Virus record (IMG/VR): IMGVR_UViG_3300018080_000647
Location: 1 to 21,843 of that record
Reading direction: 5' to 3' (one strand)
DNA: 21,843 nt
DNA from: a virus
Part shown: piece by piece, positions 3,302-21,690 of the stretch
Layout of the letters: each line of letters begins with the position of its first letter
Position numbering within the stretch: position 1 is the first letter of the stretch
Position numbers and translations under genes: made by a program
Notes under the pieces: model-generated
What the model saw: only the letters and a program-made list of their open reading frames with translations
Told to the model about the DNA's origin: nothing
Database searches by the model: none

Positions 3302-4903
3302 ATGAAATTATTTGGACTTACATTTTTTGAAAAAAAGCAGACCTCTACCGCTGATAGACTGCCGCCTATTGCTTCCTATGGAAACAGTCATCACGGCAGG
3401 TCAATAACCAGTTACCGTTCTGACGGTTCAAAATATATAGGTGGTATATCAGGCGTTAGTAATCCCATGTATTACGATCATTACGCAATCCGTAGAAACG
3501 CAAGAAATGCATATCAGGATAGTGTACATGCTCATGGCATTGTTTCACGCCGTCAAGATACCGTTGCGGATATAGGTCTAAAACTTGACGCTTCACCGAA
3601 TTGGAAACTACTCGGAATAACTCCGGAGCGTGCGGAAGAATGGGCTGCTGATGTTGAGTCACGTTTTCATTTATGGGCGCGTGATAAAAAACAACACCGC
3701 GCTGAAAATATGTCATGGTATCAAACTCATAGACTATATCAGGGTGACGATGAAAAAGACGGTGAGAACTTCGTAAGATTTTTTTATTCGAAAGAAAGAA
3801 AACTTCAAAACCCATTACAGTTTGAGTTTATAGACCCTGATCAAATACGTGGCGACGCATATACTAGTACTCAAGGGCCATATCATACTAATGATGGTAT
3901 TATTCGTGACAATCGTGGACGCGAAAAAGCGTATAATATTTGGGTATCGAAATATACAAATAATCGTTATTATATTAAAAACGAAACAATCCCACGTATC
4001 GGGGAAAAATCAAAACGCGTAATGATGATACACGGATTTACCCCTGAGTTCCCCGGTCAAAAACGTGGATTTTCAAAATTAACTCATTGTTTACAAGAGT
4101 TTCAAAACATAACAGATTTTACACTTGCACAAATAAAAAAAGCAATAAATCAGAGTAATTTGGTTATGGCTATTGAAAACAATTTGCAAGACCCGAGCAA
4201 TCCAACCGAGGATATGCCACTTACCCCCCCGGGTGGAGAGGGGTACGGTGTTATAGCGGAAACTGATCCGACTGGAGATAGTGCAGGAACATCTGAAACA
4301 GACTTACACTACACACCCATGAATGAAGTTGATATGACGGTTCCGGGATCAACCGCATATTTTAATACTCGCATGGGTGATAAAATAAAAGCGTTTGAAA
4401 ACACCGCTCCGTCTGATAGTTACGAAACATTTAAAAATGCATTTATAACAGACCTCGCCGCTTCACGTGGTATGCCTGCCGAAGTTTTACAAATGAAGTT
4501 TAACTCTTCATACAGTTCAGCACGTGCTGCCCTCGTTATGTTTTGGCGTGTTGCTTTAATTTGGCGTGAAGAGATGGCTACTGATTATTTAAATCCTACG
4601 TATGAAATGTGGTTAAATGAAGAAATAGCCGCCGGGAGAATAACTGCTCCCGGTTGGAATGACCCCATTTTAAAAAATGCATGGATGAATTGCTCATGGG
4701 TTGGTAGTCCTATGCCGAATATCGATCCAATGAGAGAGGCAAAAGCGAATAAAGAAAATCTTGCTATGAGTTTGACAACCGTTGACCGCGCCGCACGTGA
4801 ACAGAATGGAAGTGACGCGAAAACAAATATAATGAAAAATAAAAAAACATTTACCGAGATGCCTGTTCCATTTTGGGAAGATAAAGGAATAAATAATGGC
4901 TAA
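3302..4903 (+). CDS. Portal protein, lambda gpB family
   Basis: A 533-residue portal, the length I recall for lambda gpB. Family features in order: a polar N-terminus with YDHYAIRRNARNAY (about 58-71), VADIGLKL (88-95), the FEFIDPDQIRG strand (174-184), HGFTPEFPGQKRG (244-256), and near the C-terminus GRITAPGWNDP and WVGSPMPNIDPMREAKA. Twelve copies should form the ring at one capsid vertex through which terminase pumps DNA and to which the connector binds. The start has no SD: only an A-rich run lies between the previous stop (3291-3293) and the ATG, so initiation may depend on re-initiation by ribosomes from the upstream gene. The 3' end overlaps the next gene by eight bases. Confidence 0.92.
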   Translation: MKLFGLTFFEKKQTSTADRLPPIASYGNSHHGRSITSYRSDGSKYIGGISGVSNPMYYDHYAIRRNARNAYQDSVHAHGIVSRRQDTVADIGLKLDASPNWKLLGITPERAEEWAADVESRFHLWARDKKQHRAENMSWYQTHRLYQGDDEKDGENFVRFFYSKERKLQNPLQFEFIDPDQIRGDAYTSTQGPYHTNDGIIRDNRGREKAYNIWVSKYTNNRYYIKNETIPRIGEKSKRVMMIHGFTPEFPGQKRGFSKLTHCLQEFQNITDFTLAQIKKAINQSNLVMAIENNLQDPSNPTEDMPLTPPGGEGYGVIAETDPTGDSAGTSETDLHYTPMNEVDMTVPGSTAYFNTRMGDKIKAFENTAPSDSYETFKNAFITDLAASRGMPAEVLQMKFNSSYSSARAALVMFWRVALIWREEMATDYLNPTYEMWLNEEIAAGRITAPGWNDPILKNAWMNCSWVGSPMPNIDPMREAKANKENLAMSLTTVDRAAREQNGSDAKTNIMKNKKTFTEMPVPFWEDKGINNG

Positions 4904-5159
4904 TCCAACTAATGTAACTTGTACTGCTGATACGTGGACTAAGGTTGCTACAAATGTAGTAACGGGCGTAATATGGAAAAAGGACTCAAGTCCTGATTAT
5001 TTGCAAACATATAGAGAAACGGGTGGTGATGCTCCTACTAACTTAGATGACGCAGTAAAAACACTTGAAGGTAATAGTGAGTTTATATCAAGTTCTGACC
5101 CTATAGATGTTTATATTTATGCTGTTGGAGATGATGGACTTGTGAGGGTAGATTTGTGA
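4896..5159 (+). CDS. Small beta-rich protein of unknown function, cassette gene 1
   Basis: An 87-residue protein starting inside the portal stop region behind AAAGGA. I do not recognise a characterised family. It is short-stranded and Thr/Val/Asp-rich: an NVTCTADTWTKVATNV stretch at the N-terminus, then SPDYLQTYRETGGDAPT, then ISSSDPIDVYIYAVGDDG. There is no signal peptide or membrane segment. Together with the two following genes it forms a contiguous insertion between portal and protease, neighbours in lambda. A virion surface or decoration role is the natural guess for such small beta proteins inside a head operon, but nothing in the sequence proves it. Its TGA stop overlaps the GTG start of the next gene. 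Confidence 0.6.
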   Translation: MANPTNVTCTADTWTKVATNVVTGVIWKKDSSPDYLQTYRETGGDAPTNLDDAVKTLEGNSEFISSSDPIDVYIYAVGDDGLVRVDL

Positions 5160-5677
5160 TACAACCTATAGGCAACTCAAGTTGGCGTGATCCTAATGTC
5201 GGCGTAAAAGATCAATGGGTAAGCGTTCCTTATGTTTTAGGACAAAACACTGTATTTGCTCACTTGAACACGGCATACTATCATGTACACGGAACTCCTT
5301 TTGTATATCCTGACTTGGCAGACGCGGTAACTCTTACTTCTGCTTCACCCGCATGGGATGATAGCGGTTCGATAATTGAAGTAATACCGGCTGACACGTT
5401 AACGGTATCGGATTTTGATTTACATTTTATAAATATTTCAGACATATCAGGTGACGCTCAAATTCAGATTGATATTTTTAAGGGGTTATCAGGAGAAGAG
5501 GTAAAAATTAGTTCTACACGTGCCGTGAGGACTGGCGGAGCAGTAAGAAACGCACCACAAAGAATACAGATACCACAGCAGGTATCTGGCGAAAGAATAT
5601 CGTGTAGATTAAGTGATAGTTCATCTTCAAGTAAAAGTTGCGATGTAAGTTTTGAAGGTCATTATTACGCAGGGTAA
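5156..5677 (+). CDS. Beta-rich protein of unknown function, cassette gene 2
   Basis: A 173-residue protein starting at GTG 5156 in a GTGA overlap with the previous stop; GAGGG lies upstream, so the two genes are probably translationally coupled. Alternating hydrophobic residues run through it, for example IIEVIPADTLTVSDFDLHFI and AQIQIDIFKGLSGEEVKISS. It ends in a Ser-rich loop (SDSSSSSKSCDVSF) and HYYAG. This is what a beta-sandwich, jelly-roll or carbohydrate-binding-like fold looks like in sequence. Two Cys are present near the C-terminus. No enzyme motif, signal peptide or transmembrane segment is visible. Position suggests a virion component such as a head decoration or fibre protein; this is inference. 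Confidence 0.6.
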   Translation: MIQPIGNSSWRDPNVGVKDQWVSVPYVLGQNTVFAHLNTAYYHVHGTPFVYPDLADAVTLTSASPAWDDSGSIIEVIPADTLTVSDFDLHFINISDISGDAQIQIDIFKGLSGEEVKISSTRAVRTGGAVRNAPQRIQIPQQVSGERISCRLSDSSSSSKSCDVSFEGHYYAG

Positions 5678-5680
5678 AAG

Positions 5681-6442
5681 ATGATAGGAAACAAAGGGTT
5701 CGGCGATGTTTTTATACAAGATACCCATCAACCATTATTTCAATTTTATGTTCAAATAGAGCAAAAAACAGATATTACTTTAACGTCAGCGGTATCTGTT
5801 GATGATAGTGTTATTAGCGTTAGTTCCGGACATGGTTTTACAGTTGGCAATGATGTTTTAATGACGATAGTTGAGGGTGATAAAATTGAGCAAGCAAGTG
5901 TGATAGGTGTATCAGGTGATGATATCACTATTGCTATCCCGTCTGCATTTTCATTTACTACTAACGCGAAAGTAATAAGGGGTAATAAAAATCTTAATGG
6001 TGATGGTTCTGTGTCTGAAATAGAGTCATGTTTTAAATTTTATGATATAAATAATTCTAAAATACCGATAGATATTTCAAAAGTAAAAATAACAATGTCT
6101 CATGCAAACGCTGGCGACTCTGGAAAGTTTGGCGGCATATCTGCATTATCTGGAGGTGGTTTTTATTTTAGGAGAGTTAATGCTTCACGTGTTAATCTTG
6201 GTAATTATATAAATAATCAAGATTTTCAAGATAAGGGAGCGATAGTTTTATATACAGATAAAGGCCCCGGCGGGATAAATGCAACAGAAATAACTTTTAA
6301 TATGAAAGATATATTTGGTCAGGTGTTAAGGTTATCACCTAATCATGATGATGAAATTTGTGCAGTAAATAGAAACGATTTATCTTCTTTAACTAATTTT
6401 TATATATCTTTAATAGGAAGTTATACAGAATGCGAACAATAA
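5681..6442 (+). CDS. Beta-rich protein of unknown function, cassette gene 3
   Basis: A 253-residue protein three bases after the preceding stop. Residues about 30-105 (TDITLTSAVSVDDSVISVSS, GHGFTVGNDVLM, GDDITIAIPSAF) look like a small beta-barrel domain of the kind found repeatedly in virion surface proteins. A linker with GDGS follows, then a second domain (KVKITMSHAN, SGKFGGI, YFRRVNASRVNLGNY, YTDKGPGGINATE, GQVLRLSPNHDDEI) ending in FYISLIGSYTECEQ. Two-domain architecture and position fit a structural appendage protein, but I cannot assign a function. It is the last gene before promoter P3, so it marks the end of the cassette. Confidence 0.6.
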   Translation: MIGNKGFGDVFIQDTHQPLFQFYVQIEQKTDITLTSAVSVDDSVISVSSGHGFTVGNDVLMTIVEGDKIEQASVIGVSGDDITIAIPSAFSFTTNAKVIRGNKNLNGDGSVSEIESCFKFYDINNSKIPIDISKVKITMSHANAGDSGKFGGISALSGGGFYFRRVNASRVNLGNYINNQDFQDKGAIVLYTDKGPGGINATEITFNMKDIFGQVLRLSPNHDDEICAVNRNDLSSLTNFYISLIGSYTECEQ

Positions 6443-6460: not shown

Positions 6461-6489
6461 TTGACTTTTTTATAAAAACATATTATACT
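6461..6489 (+). promoter_or_regulatory. Promoter P3 for protease, scaffold and capsid genes
   Basis: TTGACT at 6461-6466, a 17-base spacer and TATACT at 6484-6489. An A-rich run at about 6440-6456 just upstream could act as an UP element. Unlike P1 and P2 there is a leader of about 45 bases before the ATG at 6542. The predicted start falls inside an inverted repeat, AACTG (6491-6495) TT CAGTT (6498-6502), a possible operator. Confidence 0.7.
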
Positions 6490-6541: not shown

Positions 6542-7654
6542 ATGACAATCATTTCTCTTAATGGTATCATCGGTTGGGATGTTACCGTTGAAGATATTAA
6601 ATCACAACTCGACAAAGCGACTGGCGATATCACTGTAGAAGTATCATCTGGCGGTGGGCTTGTTTATCCCGGTATTGCTATCTTTAATCTTTTCCGCAAT
6701 TATTCAAAAGGTCAAGTCATAATGAAAATCATTGGACTTGCCGCTTCTATGGCTTCTTATATTCCACTTGCAGGCGATAAAATCATAGCGTATGATAACG
6801 CTGTTTTTATGATACACAATGCCTTAAATGGAATTGTTGGCAATTATCTTGACATGAGAAAAAATGCCGATTATCTCGAAAGCATATCTAATCTACTCGC
6901 AAAAACATACCAAAAGAAAACAAAAAAACCTATCGATGAAGTTAAAAAAATGATGGATGAAGAGACGTTTTTTTTCGGTGAAGAAATGAGAGAGTCCGGG
7001 TTTATAGATGAAATAATTGAGTCTGAAAAAGAAACTGAAAACGAAAATAAAGAAGATAAAGACGTTTTAATTAATTCTGCAAAGGCTGAAATTGATAATT
7101 GCAGAATGACAATCCGTGAACTCGATATGTCAAAAGATGATATTGAGAAAGCGGCTGCGTGTATAGATTTTATACCCGCACAAAATAAAAAAGATTTTTC
7201 CCCGGAAAATTCGGGAAAAATAAATAAAACTAAAAAGGATGATGAAATGTCAAAAACATTAAATGAGATCCTTGCCGAAAACACCGGGGCAAAGGCTGAA
7301 TATGACAAAAATATTCAGGCTGCGGAAAAAAAAGGTAAGGACGCTATAAACGCACGAATTGAAAGCGCAAAAAACTTTCTCGGAAATGAAAAATATCCGA
7401 AGTCAGTCGCTGAAATTGCCGTAAAAGTAATTACTGGCGAAACGTCAAGCGAAGTTTTGACCGCTACTGTAGCAGCCGTTGACGCTGTAAATGAGCAGAA
7501 AAATTCAGACGCTGCTAAAAAAGAAACCGAAAAACACGGCGAAACTCCCGCAAGTGGAGAAGAAAACGTAAACGATTCAGGAATTTGCGATGACGAAAAA
7601 GCCTTTCAGGCTGAAATTGCTCGTGTAAAAGCCGAAAAAGAAGGAGTTAACTAA
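6542..7654 (+). CDS. Head maturation protease with C-terminal scaffold (lambda C/Nu3-like)
   Basis: A 370-residue two-part protein. Residues 1-160 are a ClpP-like serine protease: SSGGG (35-39), GLAASMAS with probable nucleophile Ser69, MIHN with His92, and a probable acid at Asp139 in MDEETFFFGEEM, followed by ESGFIDEII. After an acidic linker, residues 236-370 are helical and rich in Ala, Lys and Glu, typical of a scaffold. This is the lambda gpC arrangement, in which the protease carries the scaffold domain at its C-terminus. The protease matures the procapsid and is lost or inactivated afterwards. The start is supported by GGAGG nine bases upstream and by promoter P3. The stop overlaps the next ATG (TAATG). 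Confidence 0.88.
   Translation: MTIISLNGIIGWDVTVEDIKSQLDKATGDITVEVSSGGGLVYPGIAIFNLFRNYSKGQVIMKIIGLAASMASYIPLAGDKIIAYDNAVFMIHNALNGIVGNYLDMRKNADYLESISNLLAKTYQKKTKKPIDEVKKMMDEETFFFGEEMRESGFIDEIIESEKETENENKEDKDVLINSAKAEIDNCRMTIRELDMSKDDIEKAAACIDFIPAQNKKDFSPENSGKINKTKKDDEMSKTLNEILAENTGAKAEYDKNIQAAEKKGKDAINARIESAKNFLGNEKYPKSVAEIAVKVITGETSSEVLTATVAAVDAVNEQKNSDAAKKETEKHGETPASGEENVNDSGICDDEKAFQAEIARVKAEKEGVN
7195..7220 (+). promoter_or_regulatory. Hairpin upstream of the internal scaffold start
   Basis: TTTTT (7195-7199) and CCCG (7201-7204) can pair with CGGG (7212-7215) and AAAAA (7216-7220), with one bulged C at 7200 and a seven-base loop. It lies 26 bases before the scaffold ATG. The A residues after the stem rule out a rho-independent terminator. 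It may affect ribosome loading at the internal start or mRNA processing. Confidence 0.35.
7247..7654 (+). CDS. Nested in-frame scaffold protein (Nu3-like)
   Basis: An internal start in the same frame as the protease gene gives a 135-residue protein (MSKTLNEILAEN...EKEGVN) equal to its C-terminal third. AAAAAGGA lies directly upstream with seven bases between AGGA and ATG, a spacing as good as for the separately encoded genes. The protein is helical and rich in Ala, Lys and Glu with no enzyme motif, as expected for a scaffold that fills the procapsid and exits or is degraded. In lambda, Nu3 is made in the same way from inside gene C. That precedent, the internal SD and the sharp change of composition support it; expression itself is inferred. 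Confidence 0.7.
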   Translation: MSKTLNEILAENTGAKAEYDKNIQAAEKKGKDAINARIESAKNFLGNEKYPKSVAEIAVKVITGETSSEVLTATVAAVDAVNEQKNSDAAKKETEKHGETPASGEENVNDSGICDDEKAFQAEIARVKAEKEGVN

Positions 7655-8415
7655 TGAGTGTTCAAACTTCTACAGATATAAATACGCGTCCGTTTGTGCT
7701 TGCTGGTCACCCGGTTGCACTGAGAAAAGACGCAGAAACAATTAAGCAGGACGTAGAACGTGCTATAGCACTTGCAAGCCGTACCCTTATGGGTAGGCAA
7801 CAAGTTTTAAGCGCAATCACTCCAGTTGCTGGCGGGGAGAATACAGGTAACGGAACCGTCACACTGGCTACTGTTGTCGGTATCGGAAATTCTGGCGAGC
7901 GTGTAATTCCTAAAGCCGGGTCATGGGCTTTTACCCTTACCGCCGCTCTTGTTGGTAAAATTACTGACCCTGACGGAAACGATGTTGTGACTGGAATTGC
8001 ATTAAACGACGGGACTACAACCGTTGTAAAATATGCAGGTTTACAATTTACCGTAACCGATGGCGCTACAGCGTTTGAGGCTGACGATACTTTTAGCCTG
8101 CCCGTTGTTGCCGATGGTGACTGGGTTCCTTATAATGCTGATAATGTTCTCGGTGCTGCTTACCCGCAGGGTATTTTTGATCCCGGCGCAGAGGTTGGCG
8201 ACATTGCAGCCGCTGATATTGTAGCCGCTGATATTACGGACGTTCCTATTCTTGTTTCAAGCGCACGATTTGATTCTGGCTTGCTTGTGATTGAGGACTC
8301 AGGCGCACTAACTGACATGGTTCCTGATACCGGACTTACGGTTGAAGAATACCTACGACAAAGACAGCTAATAGCCGAAAGCACAATAGCCGGCTCCGCT
8401 GCTGAAAACTCTTAA
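7654..8415 (+). CDS. Head decoration protein, gpD-like position
   Basis: A 253-residue protein between scaffold and major capsid genes, the place of gpD in lambda, but more than twice the length of gpD (110). The N-terminus (NTRPFVLAGHPVAL, then a helix KQDVERAIALASRTLM) is followed by a beta domain at about 60-150 beginning GNGTVTLATVVGIG and including DPDGNDV, of the type seen in large phage decoration and cement proteins. After an Ala/Asp-rich stretch comes a C-terminal part (ILVSSARFDSGLLVIEDSG, TVEEYLRQRQLIAES). It should bind the expanded capsid surface and stabilise it. A near-perfect 15-base tandem duplication (8206-8235) encodes the AAADIVAADI stretch. The start overlaps the previous stop (TAATG) behind GAAGGAG. 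Function is from position and pattern. Confidence 0.68.
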   Translation: MSVQTSTDINTRPFVLAGHPVALRKDAETIKQDVERAIALASRTLMGRQQVLSAITPVAGGENTGNGTVTLATVVGIGNSGERVIPKAGSWAFTLTAALVGKITDPDGNDVVTGIALNDGTTTVVKYAGLQFTVTDGATAFEADDTFSLPVVADGDWVPYNADNVLGAAYPQGIFDPGAEVGDIAAADIVAADITDVPILVSSARFDSGLLVIEDSGALTDMVPDTGLTVEEYLRQRQLIAESTIAGSAAENS

Positions 8416-20901: not shown

Positions 20902-21690
20902 ATGATACAATACAGTACTTTAACAAACGTAACCGGGAGTTTTCCTAATTACACAGGAAAAAATGCTACAGGTGCGGGGGCAACTGACGGCACGCCGTTC
21001 GTAGCCGCTTTTATAGATGATATATGGGGGCGTTTTCAAGCGTTAATGGATAGAGCAGATTTAACACCGAATGCTATAACAGAGTCGGCAAGTGCTTCAC
21101 AGCATATTGACTCACTAAAAAAAGGATTTGCTCTCGGTGCTGGATATGTCGTTCAGTATATGAAAGCAGACTCTCCGGCAACTAATGGCGATAGGGTTTT
21201 ACTTTTAACAGGGCAGGGTATTTTACGTGCAAGTTATCCTGAACTTGACGCTGCTGTCTATGTCGGCGATGCAAATAACGCAGCAGTAGCAGCGGCAGGA
21301 GGTGCTTTTTTCCGTGCTGATAATTCAGACGGTAGTTCACCGAGTACCACAGGCGTATATTTAATTATGCCTGAAACTCGTGGTAGAGTACCTCGTGGTG
21401 ATGATGCTGCGGCGAGTGTTGACCCCGATGGTGCAAGTCGATATTTGGGTGATAATCAGGCTGATGCTTTTCAGGGGCATAAAATGGGAATAGAGGACGG
21501 CAGCGGTAATGTTTTTGTTTCAACAAATCAAGCCCTGACCGGGTCAACCGACAGGGTAGTAGGAACAGGGTCACCAGCAAATTCTATAAGGGCGGCTGGT
21601 TTTTTCACTGACGGCACTAACGGAACCCCTCGCATTGACGAAGAAACCCGCATGGCTAACTTTCAAACAAAATGGGCAATTACTTATTAA
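20902..21690 (+). CDS. Tail fibre protein with collar-type domain
   Basis: A 262-residue protein after the last baseplate gene. The N-terminal 70 residues (including FVAAFIDDIWGRFQALMDRA and a helix with HIDSLKKGF) look like a baseplate-attachment region. The remainder resembles the phage tail collar domain: GDRVLLLTGQGILRASYPEL, then MPETRGRVPRGDDA, NQADAFQGHKMG and a closing RIDEETRMANFQTKWAITY like the conserved 'E-T-R-x-x-N' end of collar fibres. It is short for a host-range fibre, so it may be a fibre base or one of several tip proteins. SD AAAAAGGA merges with the previous TAA. Confidence 0.78.
   Translation: MIQYSTLTNVTGSFPNYTGKNATGAGATDGTPFVAAFIDDIWGRFQALMDRADLTPNAITESASASQHIDSLKKGFALGAGYVVQYMKADSPATNGDRVLLLTGQGILRASYPELDAAVYVGDANNAAVAAAGGAFFRADNSDGSSPSTTGVYLIMPETRGRVPRGDDAAASVDPDGASRYLGDNQADAFQGHKMGIEDGSGNVFVSTNQALTGSTDRVVGTGSPANSIRAAGFFTDGTNGTPRIDEETRMANFQTKWAITY

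Follow-up and report, generated by a model that had tools for sequence, protein, structure and literature searches.

A variable gene slot between portal and protease in environmental phages, with a candidate adaptor and peptide-tagged cargo

Comparison of related contigs suggests that three small genes, A, B and C, which lie between the portal and protease genes of a 21,843-base IMG/VR virus fragment (the window, by which we mean the whole stretch of DNA analysed), do not make up a fixed three-gene system but fill, in this phage, a slot whose content varies. A, the first gene of the slot, is conserved, while the genes that follow it, here called cargo, vary and often carry near the N-terminus a short peptide of the I-G-N type, here called the tag. 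We see somewhat better than an even chance that A is a virion adaptor on which tagged cargo docks by its N-terminal peptide for display; location, docking and adhesion are what we infer from these comparisons.

Gene layout and fillings of the slot

The DNA of the window is AT-rich and, according to Pfam and PHROGs searches, also encodes a terminase GpA and a relative of the major capsid protein E. The features relevant to the slot are the following, with relatives given by the number of the contig or locus (L).

3302..4903 (+): lambda-family portal, upstream border of the slot (PF05136, 1.3e-49; phrog_21, 2.9e-69)
4896..5159 (+): A, 87 aa, first gene of the slot, candidate adaptor or anchor (new family, 19-row alignment)
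5156..5677 (+): B, 173 aa, GTG start, tagged cargo (relatives in L004-L006 and L009-L012; AlphaFold2)
5168..5176 (+): I-G-N tag codons of B, residues 5-7 (motif statistics)
5285..5671 (+): beta-sandwich domain of B, residues ~44-172 (AlphaFold2 model and structure matches)
5681..6442 (+): C, 253 aa, tagged cargo (relatives in L016-L028 and several L049+ loci; AlphaFold2)
5684..5692 (+): I-G-N tag codons of C, residues 2-4
5753..5989 (+): small beta-barrel of C, residues ~25-103 (structure match to tailspike N-terminal barrels)
6020..6424 (+): jelly-roll-like domain of C, residues ~114-248 (AlphaFold2; jelly-roll matches near Z 7)
6461..6489 (+): promoter-like sequence 5' of the protease gene, unproven (TTGACT-17-TATACT, 10/12 consensus)
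6542..7654 (+): ClpP-type head maturation protease, downstream border of the slot (PF00574, 6.8e-28; phrog_94, 1.9e-57)
7654-8415: decoration-like gene directly after the protease gene (related genes in other contigs)
20902-21690: the phage's own tail fibre

The coordinates and sizes of the three open reading frames (87, 173 and 253 residues) agree with those given in an earlier note on this DNA, as does their tight coupling: A shares 8 bp with the portal gene and 4 bp (GTGA) with B, and 3 bp separate the stop of B from the start of C. A, B and C are genuine genes and not chance reading frames, because relatives at 40-60% identity, with part or the whole of the trio in matching order, exist in other contigs. 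As had been proposed, Pfam, PHROGs and PADLOC searches gave no enzyme family for any of the three, and inspection of the N-termini, a heuristic, revealed no signal peptide; PADLOC likewise returned no defence-model match, and a sequence search of the PDB yielded no useful match to any of the three. The supposed new promoter at 6461-6489 did not stand out from chance, since 12 promoter-like matches were found in the region against 11.7 expected.

As judged from its sequence, A defines a new protein family outside Pfam, PHROGs and the PDB, where searches gave no confident match. Its relatives share 26-60% identity, and the 19-row alignment yields the consensus MANPxxVxCxxxTWTKVATNVTxGxI...YxxTYRxTGxxAPT...IDVYI...GxVRVDL. 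The family was absent from 50,697 phage records searched by tblastn, in which B and C gave only weak matches, from every record of a cultured phage searched, and from the plasmids searched. No strong host signal emerged: only two MAG prophages (bacterium SM23_31 and Candidatus Zixiibacteriota) had the gene, and within one phylum 1 of 132 genomes. The gene lies directly 3' of the portal gene in 46 of 49 A-bearing contigs, and in L061 A and C are fused in one protein. Kinship of A with the small proteins preceding the B relatives in L004 and L012 (profile probability 4.6%), as well as with the N-terminal domain of Vibrio phage proteins (1.2%), was considered and dropped.

Some A genes deserve separate mention. 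The homologue at L018:6506-6784 has no ATG, GTG or TTG at the expected start, where an ATA is found about 10 bases past an AGGAGG; this is either a rare start codon or a sequencing error. Two A genes occur in the slots of L050 (5005-5265 and 6997-7257) and L060 (4445-4711 and 5429-5698). Each copy in L050 precedes its own IGN-tagged cargo, which suggests duplication of the whole anchor-cargo unit.

Around A homologues, those of the two MAG prophages included, the gene order is gpW-like gene, portal, A, variable genes, ClpP protease, decoration-like gene and capsid. A denominator was obtained by a survey with the portal alone as query, which gave 73 loci once duplicates were removed, 53 of them with a complete portal-protease interval. 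A was present in 35 of these 53, a share that may be inflated because the portal seeds were taken mainly from A-bearing contigs; 31 of the 35 held further genes and 4 held A only, and A stands alone in the slots of L099, L115, L140 and L144. Five intervals were empty and 13 contained other genes; the shortest interval measures -49 bp and the longest about 5,200 bp. Direct adjacency of portal and protease, which we take to be the arrangement of lambda, was seen in five relatives and, among cultured phages with more distant portals, in Vibrio phage 1.087; since such empty slots exist, the module is dispensable. In Flavobacterium phage FCL-2, also cultured and with a more distant portal, the slot is filled by eight genes, including an M15 peptidase.

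A, B and C are three independent families, which combine freely. Other fillings include A with B (L009), A with C (L018), A with C and a B' unrelated to B (L016/L017), and A with unrelated cargo; L004, L005 and L012 have B but no A of the window family. Part or all of the trio, put forward in the earlier note as a set, was found in the same order elsewhere; its genes were also found apart and in other combinations. The contig comparison within the portal family led us to reject a fixed three-gene system in favour of A plus variable cargo as the unit. The open-access papers searched contained no description of the slot, and in the passages searched of two papers on FCL-2 its slot genes were not assigned to the virion.

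Predicted folds of B and C

The relatives of B are 45-59% identical (L004-L006, L009-L012). The head genes of their contigs are otherwise different, and the B relative is found in several places: it follows the capsid gene in L005, neighbours head-adaptor-like genes in L004 and L012, and precedes a portal of another family in L009. The beta-rich character ascribed to all three proteins is borne out for those of 173 and 253 residues by AlphaFold2 models, with mean pLDDT values of 73.6 and 81.6, respectively. Specifically, B is predicted to form a jelly-roll-like beta-sandwich preceded by a disordered arm (residues 1-43, mostly with pLDDT below 50). Its best structure matches reach Z values of about 8 and are jelly rolls of a generic kind, among them CBMs, TNF, phage cement and turret proteins, so that the modelled fold class is the only secure statement on B.

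Among those matches are the KHP40 cement protein (7dou, TMt 0.49), Pam1 (7eel, Z 7.7) and the HFTV1 turret (Z 7.4), all level with many unrelated jelly rolls. This likeness at the level of the fold, together with the location in the head operon and the N-terminal arms that anchor some decoration proteins (PMC7602432), would fit a role of A, B and C as capsid cement or stability proteins on the lattice, with no part in adhesion. Extreme cargo turnover would nevertheless be unexpected next to a conserved capsid protein, a separate decoration-like gene follows the protease, empty slots occur, and lectin-type and fibre-like cargo is found; we hold the cement role to be the least probable of the three alternatives weighed in this work.

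A relative of B at L006:3996-4535 (IMGVR_UViG_3300007537_000001), and also that in L007, carries in-frame TGA codons at conserved glycines; translated with code 25 (TGA=Gly), the frame is open throughout. This suggests a phage of Gracilibacteria/Absconditabacteria-like hosts.

The relatives of C range from 49% down to about 21% identity, some being fused to other domains, and those in Vibrio podophages are hypothetical proteins encoded between terminase and portal. In the AlphaFold2 model (pTM 0.79), residues 1-15 are disordered and are followed by a small barrel and a jelly-roll-like domain. Residues 25-103 match 7w1c_A with a Z of 11.9 and an rmsd of 1.8 over 77 residues, and Foldseek aligned the barrel with 4ru5_C at an rmsd of 2.3 over 87 columns. 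A Pfam match of C to birnavirus VP2 was rejected as weak (E 0.069), and so was homology between B and C, for which profile comparison gave a probability of 0.7%, though both proteins end in a similar strand.

Cargo turnover, the tag and the proposed display function

Cargo and anchor differ sharply in conservation: the first cargo proteins were BLAST-similar in 39 of 820 pairs, the A proteins encoded on those contigs in 773 of 820. Many cargo proteins nevertheless share the tag, the starts seen including MIGNG, MKIGNGK, MICEVIGNK, MEQVGNGE, MTDMTQFIGNGE and MSNNDLVIGNR. The tag was defined on the first loci and then tested on contigs retrieved by A homology only, in which 14 of 39 slot genes carried it, against 1 of 170 other genes (p=9e-11). 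In the portal-family contigs from L068 onwards, the strict form [IV]GN was present in 10 of 39 first genes after A and in 2 of 631 background genes (p=8e-12). A broadened form, [IV]G[NPSGDTAQ], reached 28 of 39 first genes against 31 of 631 (p=2e-24), a figure to be read with the fact that this form was picked after seeing the data and that related contigs are not fully independent. About a quarter of the first genes are without even the broadened tag, and L054 is without any. A DNA scan for the literal MKIGNGK gave N-terminal matches in two contigs only, both already known.

These data bear on the possibility that the cargo consists of mere mosaic accessory genes at a recombination-tolerant operon end, with the shared start as a by-product of recombination or translational coupling. 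Indeed, A-to-cargo junctions are mostly 4-bp overlaps, and lysis genes, membrane proteins and genes of unknown function share the slot. However, the codons for I, G and N differ synonymously across 26 tagged genes, and because of this variation the tag appears to be maintained as a peptide, which points to selection acting at the protein level. In addition, the tag ranges in position from residue 2 to 16, is found on cargo genes in second and third place too and is seldom seen in the other genes of these contigs, and A is retained in most filled slots. We rate the mosaic explanation as unlikely, if a little less so than the cement role.

At L005:7193-9252, small beta-type genes with MRIGNG, MKIGN and MRIGG starts form an array after the capsid gene, with no A of the window family; judging from this array, the tag may pair with anchors other than A.

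Part of the cargo resembles adhesion or structural proteins. LamG/ConA lectin domains were found in L050 and, twice, in L062, PHROG matches to 'virion structural protein' in L059, L062 and L118, and a 'head decoration' match in L103, while fibre-like repeats were recognised by eye in L087, L103 and L138. The slot also houses lysis genes (Amidase_2 in L064, the M15 peptidase in FCL-2) and is thus open to late genes of other kinds. At L064:3835-4252 and L049:4213-4750, overlapping small genes in different frames with hydrophobic N-terminal segments show a spanin-like Rz/Rz1 layout; the pair in L064 adjoins the Amidase_2 endolysin, which places lysis genes between portal and protease.

Clear Sec-type signal peptides were found on the A-C fusion of L061 (7935-9035), on some slot proteins of L071, L103, L118 and L138, and on the C relatives L019:1678-2790 and L022:4457-5818. 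These virion- or fibre-type proteins, A-C and C fusions among them, are encoded within structural gene clusters, and their signal peptides are hard to reconcile with cytoplasmic virion assembly. Together with the lysis genes in the same slot, they would favour slot proteins that are not virion parts but late host-surface or exported factors, which would cover or modify the surface of the host (superinfection exclusion, receptor masking, aggregation). Against export, a hydrophobic N-terminus occurs in only 1 of 54 A proteins and in none of A, B and C of the window, the first slot gene overlaps the portal gene within the head operon, and some cargo belongs to virion structural or head-decoration PHROGs. 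We consider export improbable, though the least improbable of the three alternatives.

The head-surface appendage or host-adhesion module formed by one complex, as the earlier note tentatively had it, remains the best reading on comparative grounds, once the fixed trio is given up. In the mechanism that we propose, A would sit on the virion, at the portal, neck or capsid, as an adaptor or anchor; the flexible N-terminal tag of B and C would dock on A or on a shared site next to it; and the folded domains would be shown outward as accessory adhesion or receptor-binding elements beside the phage's own tail fibre. Exchange of a tagged gene would then alter the displayed domain and leave the anchor unchanged. 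We counted in support of display the conservation of A but not of cargo, the protein-level tag, the disordered tag regions in both models, the adhesion- or fibre-type cargo, the Vibrio podophage relatives of C and the A-C fusion of L061; counted against it were the signal peptides on some slot proteins, a tag that is not universal and the lysis genes in the slot. The fuller claim, that of an undescribed plug-in display with an 87-aa adaptor after the portal and an IGN-type docking peptide, giving a switchable second surface-binding layer on head or neck, is put forward tentatively, at somewhat less than an even chance. In any case it is likely that the truth is mixed, the hotspot having room for display modules as well as for lysis genes.

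If the display reading is true, many environmental phages would possess a dedicated, easily searched slot that swaps surface-binding modules independently of tail fibres. With the A family and the tag, such cargo can be found in genomes whose cargo genes are so far almost all 'hypothetical', and ideas on head or neck adhesion and on the evolution of host range can be put to the test. Under the alternatives, too, the head operon has in this slot a newly mapped hotspot of accessory genes.

Comparison with known systems

Decoration and head-fibre proteins such as Hoc, gpD, Dec and phi29 gp8.5 are accessory, head-borne and mostly beta-rich, some of them aid host adhesion, and N-terminal arms that become ordered upon binding are known among decoration proteins (PMC7602432). 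No sequence relation to these four was found, and the present system, with its putative place on the head, differs from them in its separate anchor and cargo genes and in its extreme cargo turnover.

The small N-terminal barrel of C is like those of the tailspikes K1 lyase (7w1c), phi297 gp61 (4ru5) and AP22 gp54 (4y9v), and similar barrels are found in other phage and cellular proteins. Unlike these tailspikes, C has no central beta-helix or enzyme family, and a jelly-roll-like domain follows its barrel. The hypothetical proteins p0030 of Vibrio phage PS25B.1 and NVP1021A_05 of Vibrio phage 1.021 are homologous to C in their C-terminal part (BFVD match, TM 0.78); unlike C of the window, they are fused to another N-terminal domain and encoded between the terminase and a podophage portal.

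The closest parallel in organisation is with SP6, K1-5, K1E and the KP34- and KP32-type Klebsiella phages, whose interchangeable tailspikes are described as docking on an anchor protein by short conserved peptides (PMC6872550). As in these phages, a short conserved N-terminal peptide is present on the variable proteins. A is conserved next to variable cargo, and the two would take the parts of adaptor and receptor-binding proteins. In contrast to their tail modules and tailspike depolymerases, the genes described here lie between portal and protease, the peptide is [IV]GN-like and differs from those in PMC6872550, and the candidate adaptor comes from a family of 87-aa proteins for which no known protein gave a match. 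Since the genes stand outside the tail module and the tail fibre is encoded elsewhere (20902-21690), we do not file the slot as a member of the SP6/K1-5 type. In conclusion, the slot may work like these adaptor-peptide systems, by analogy and with parts that look unrelated.
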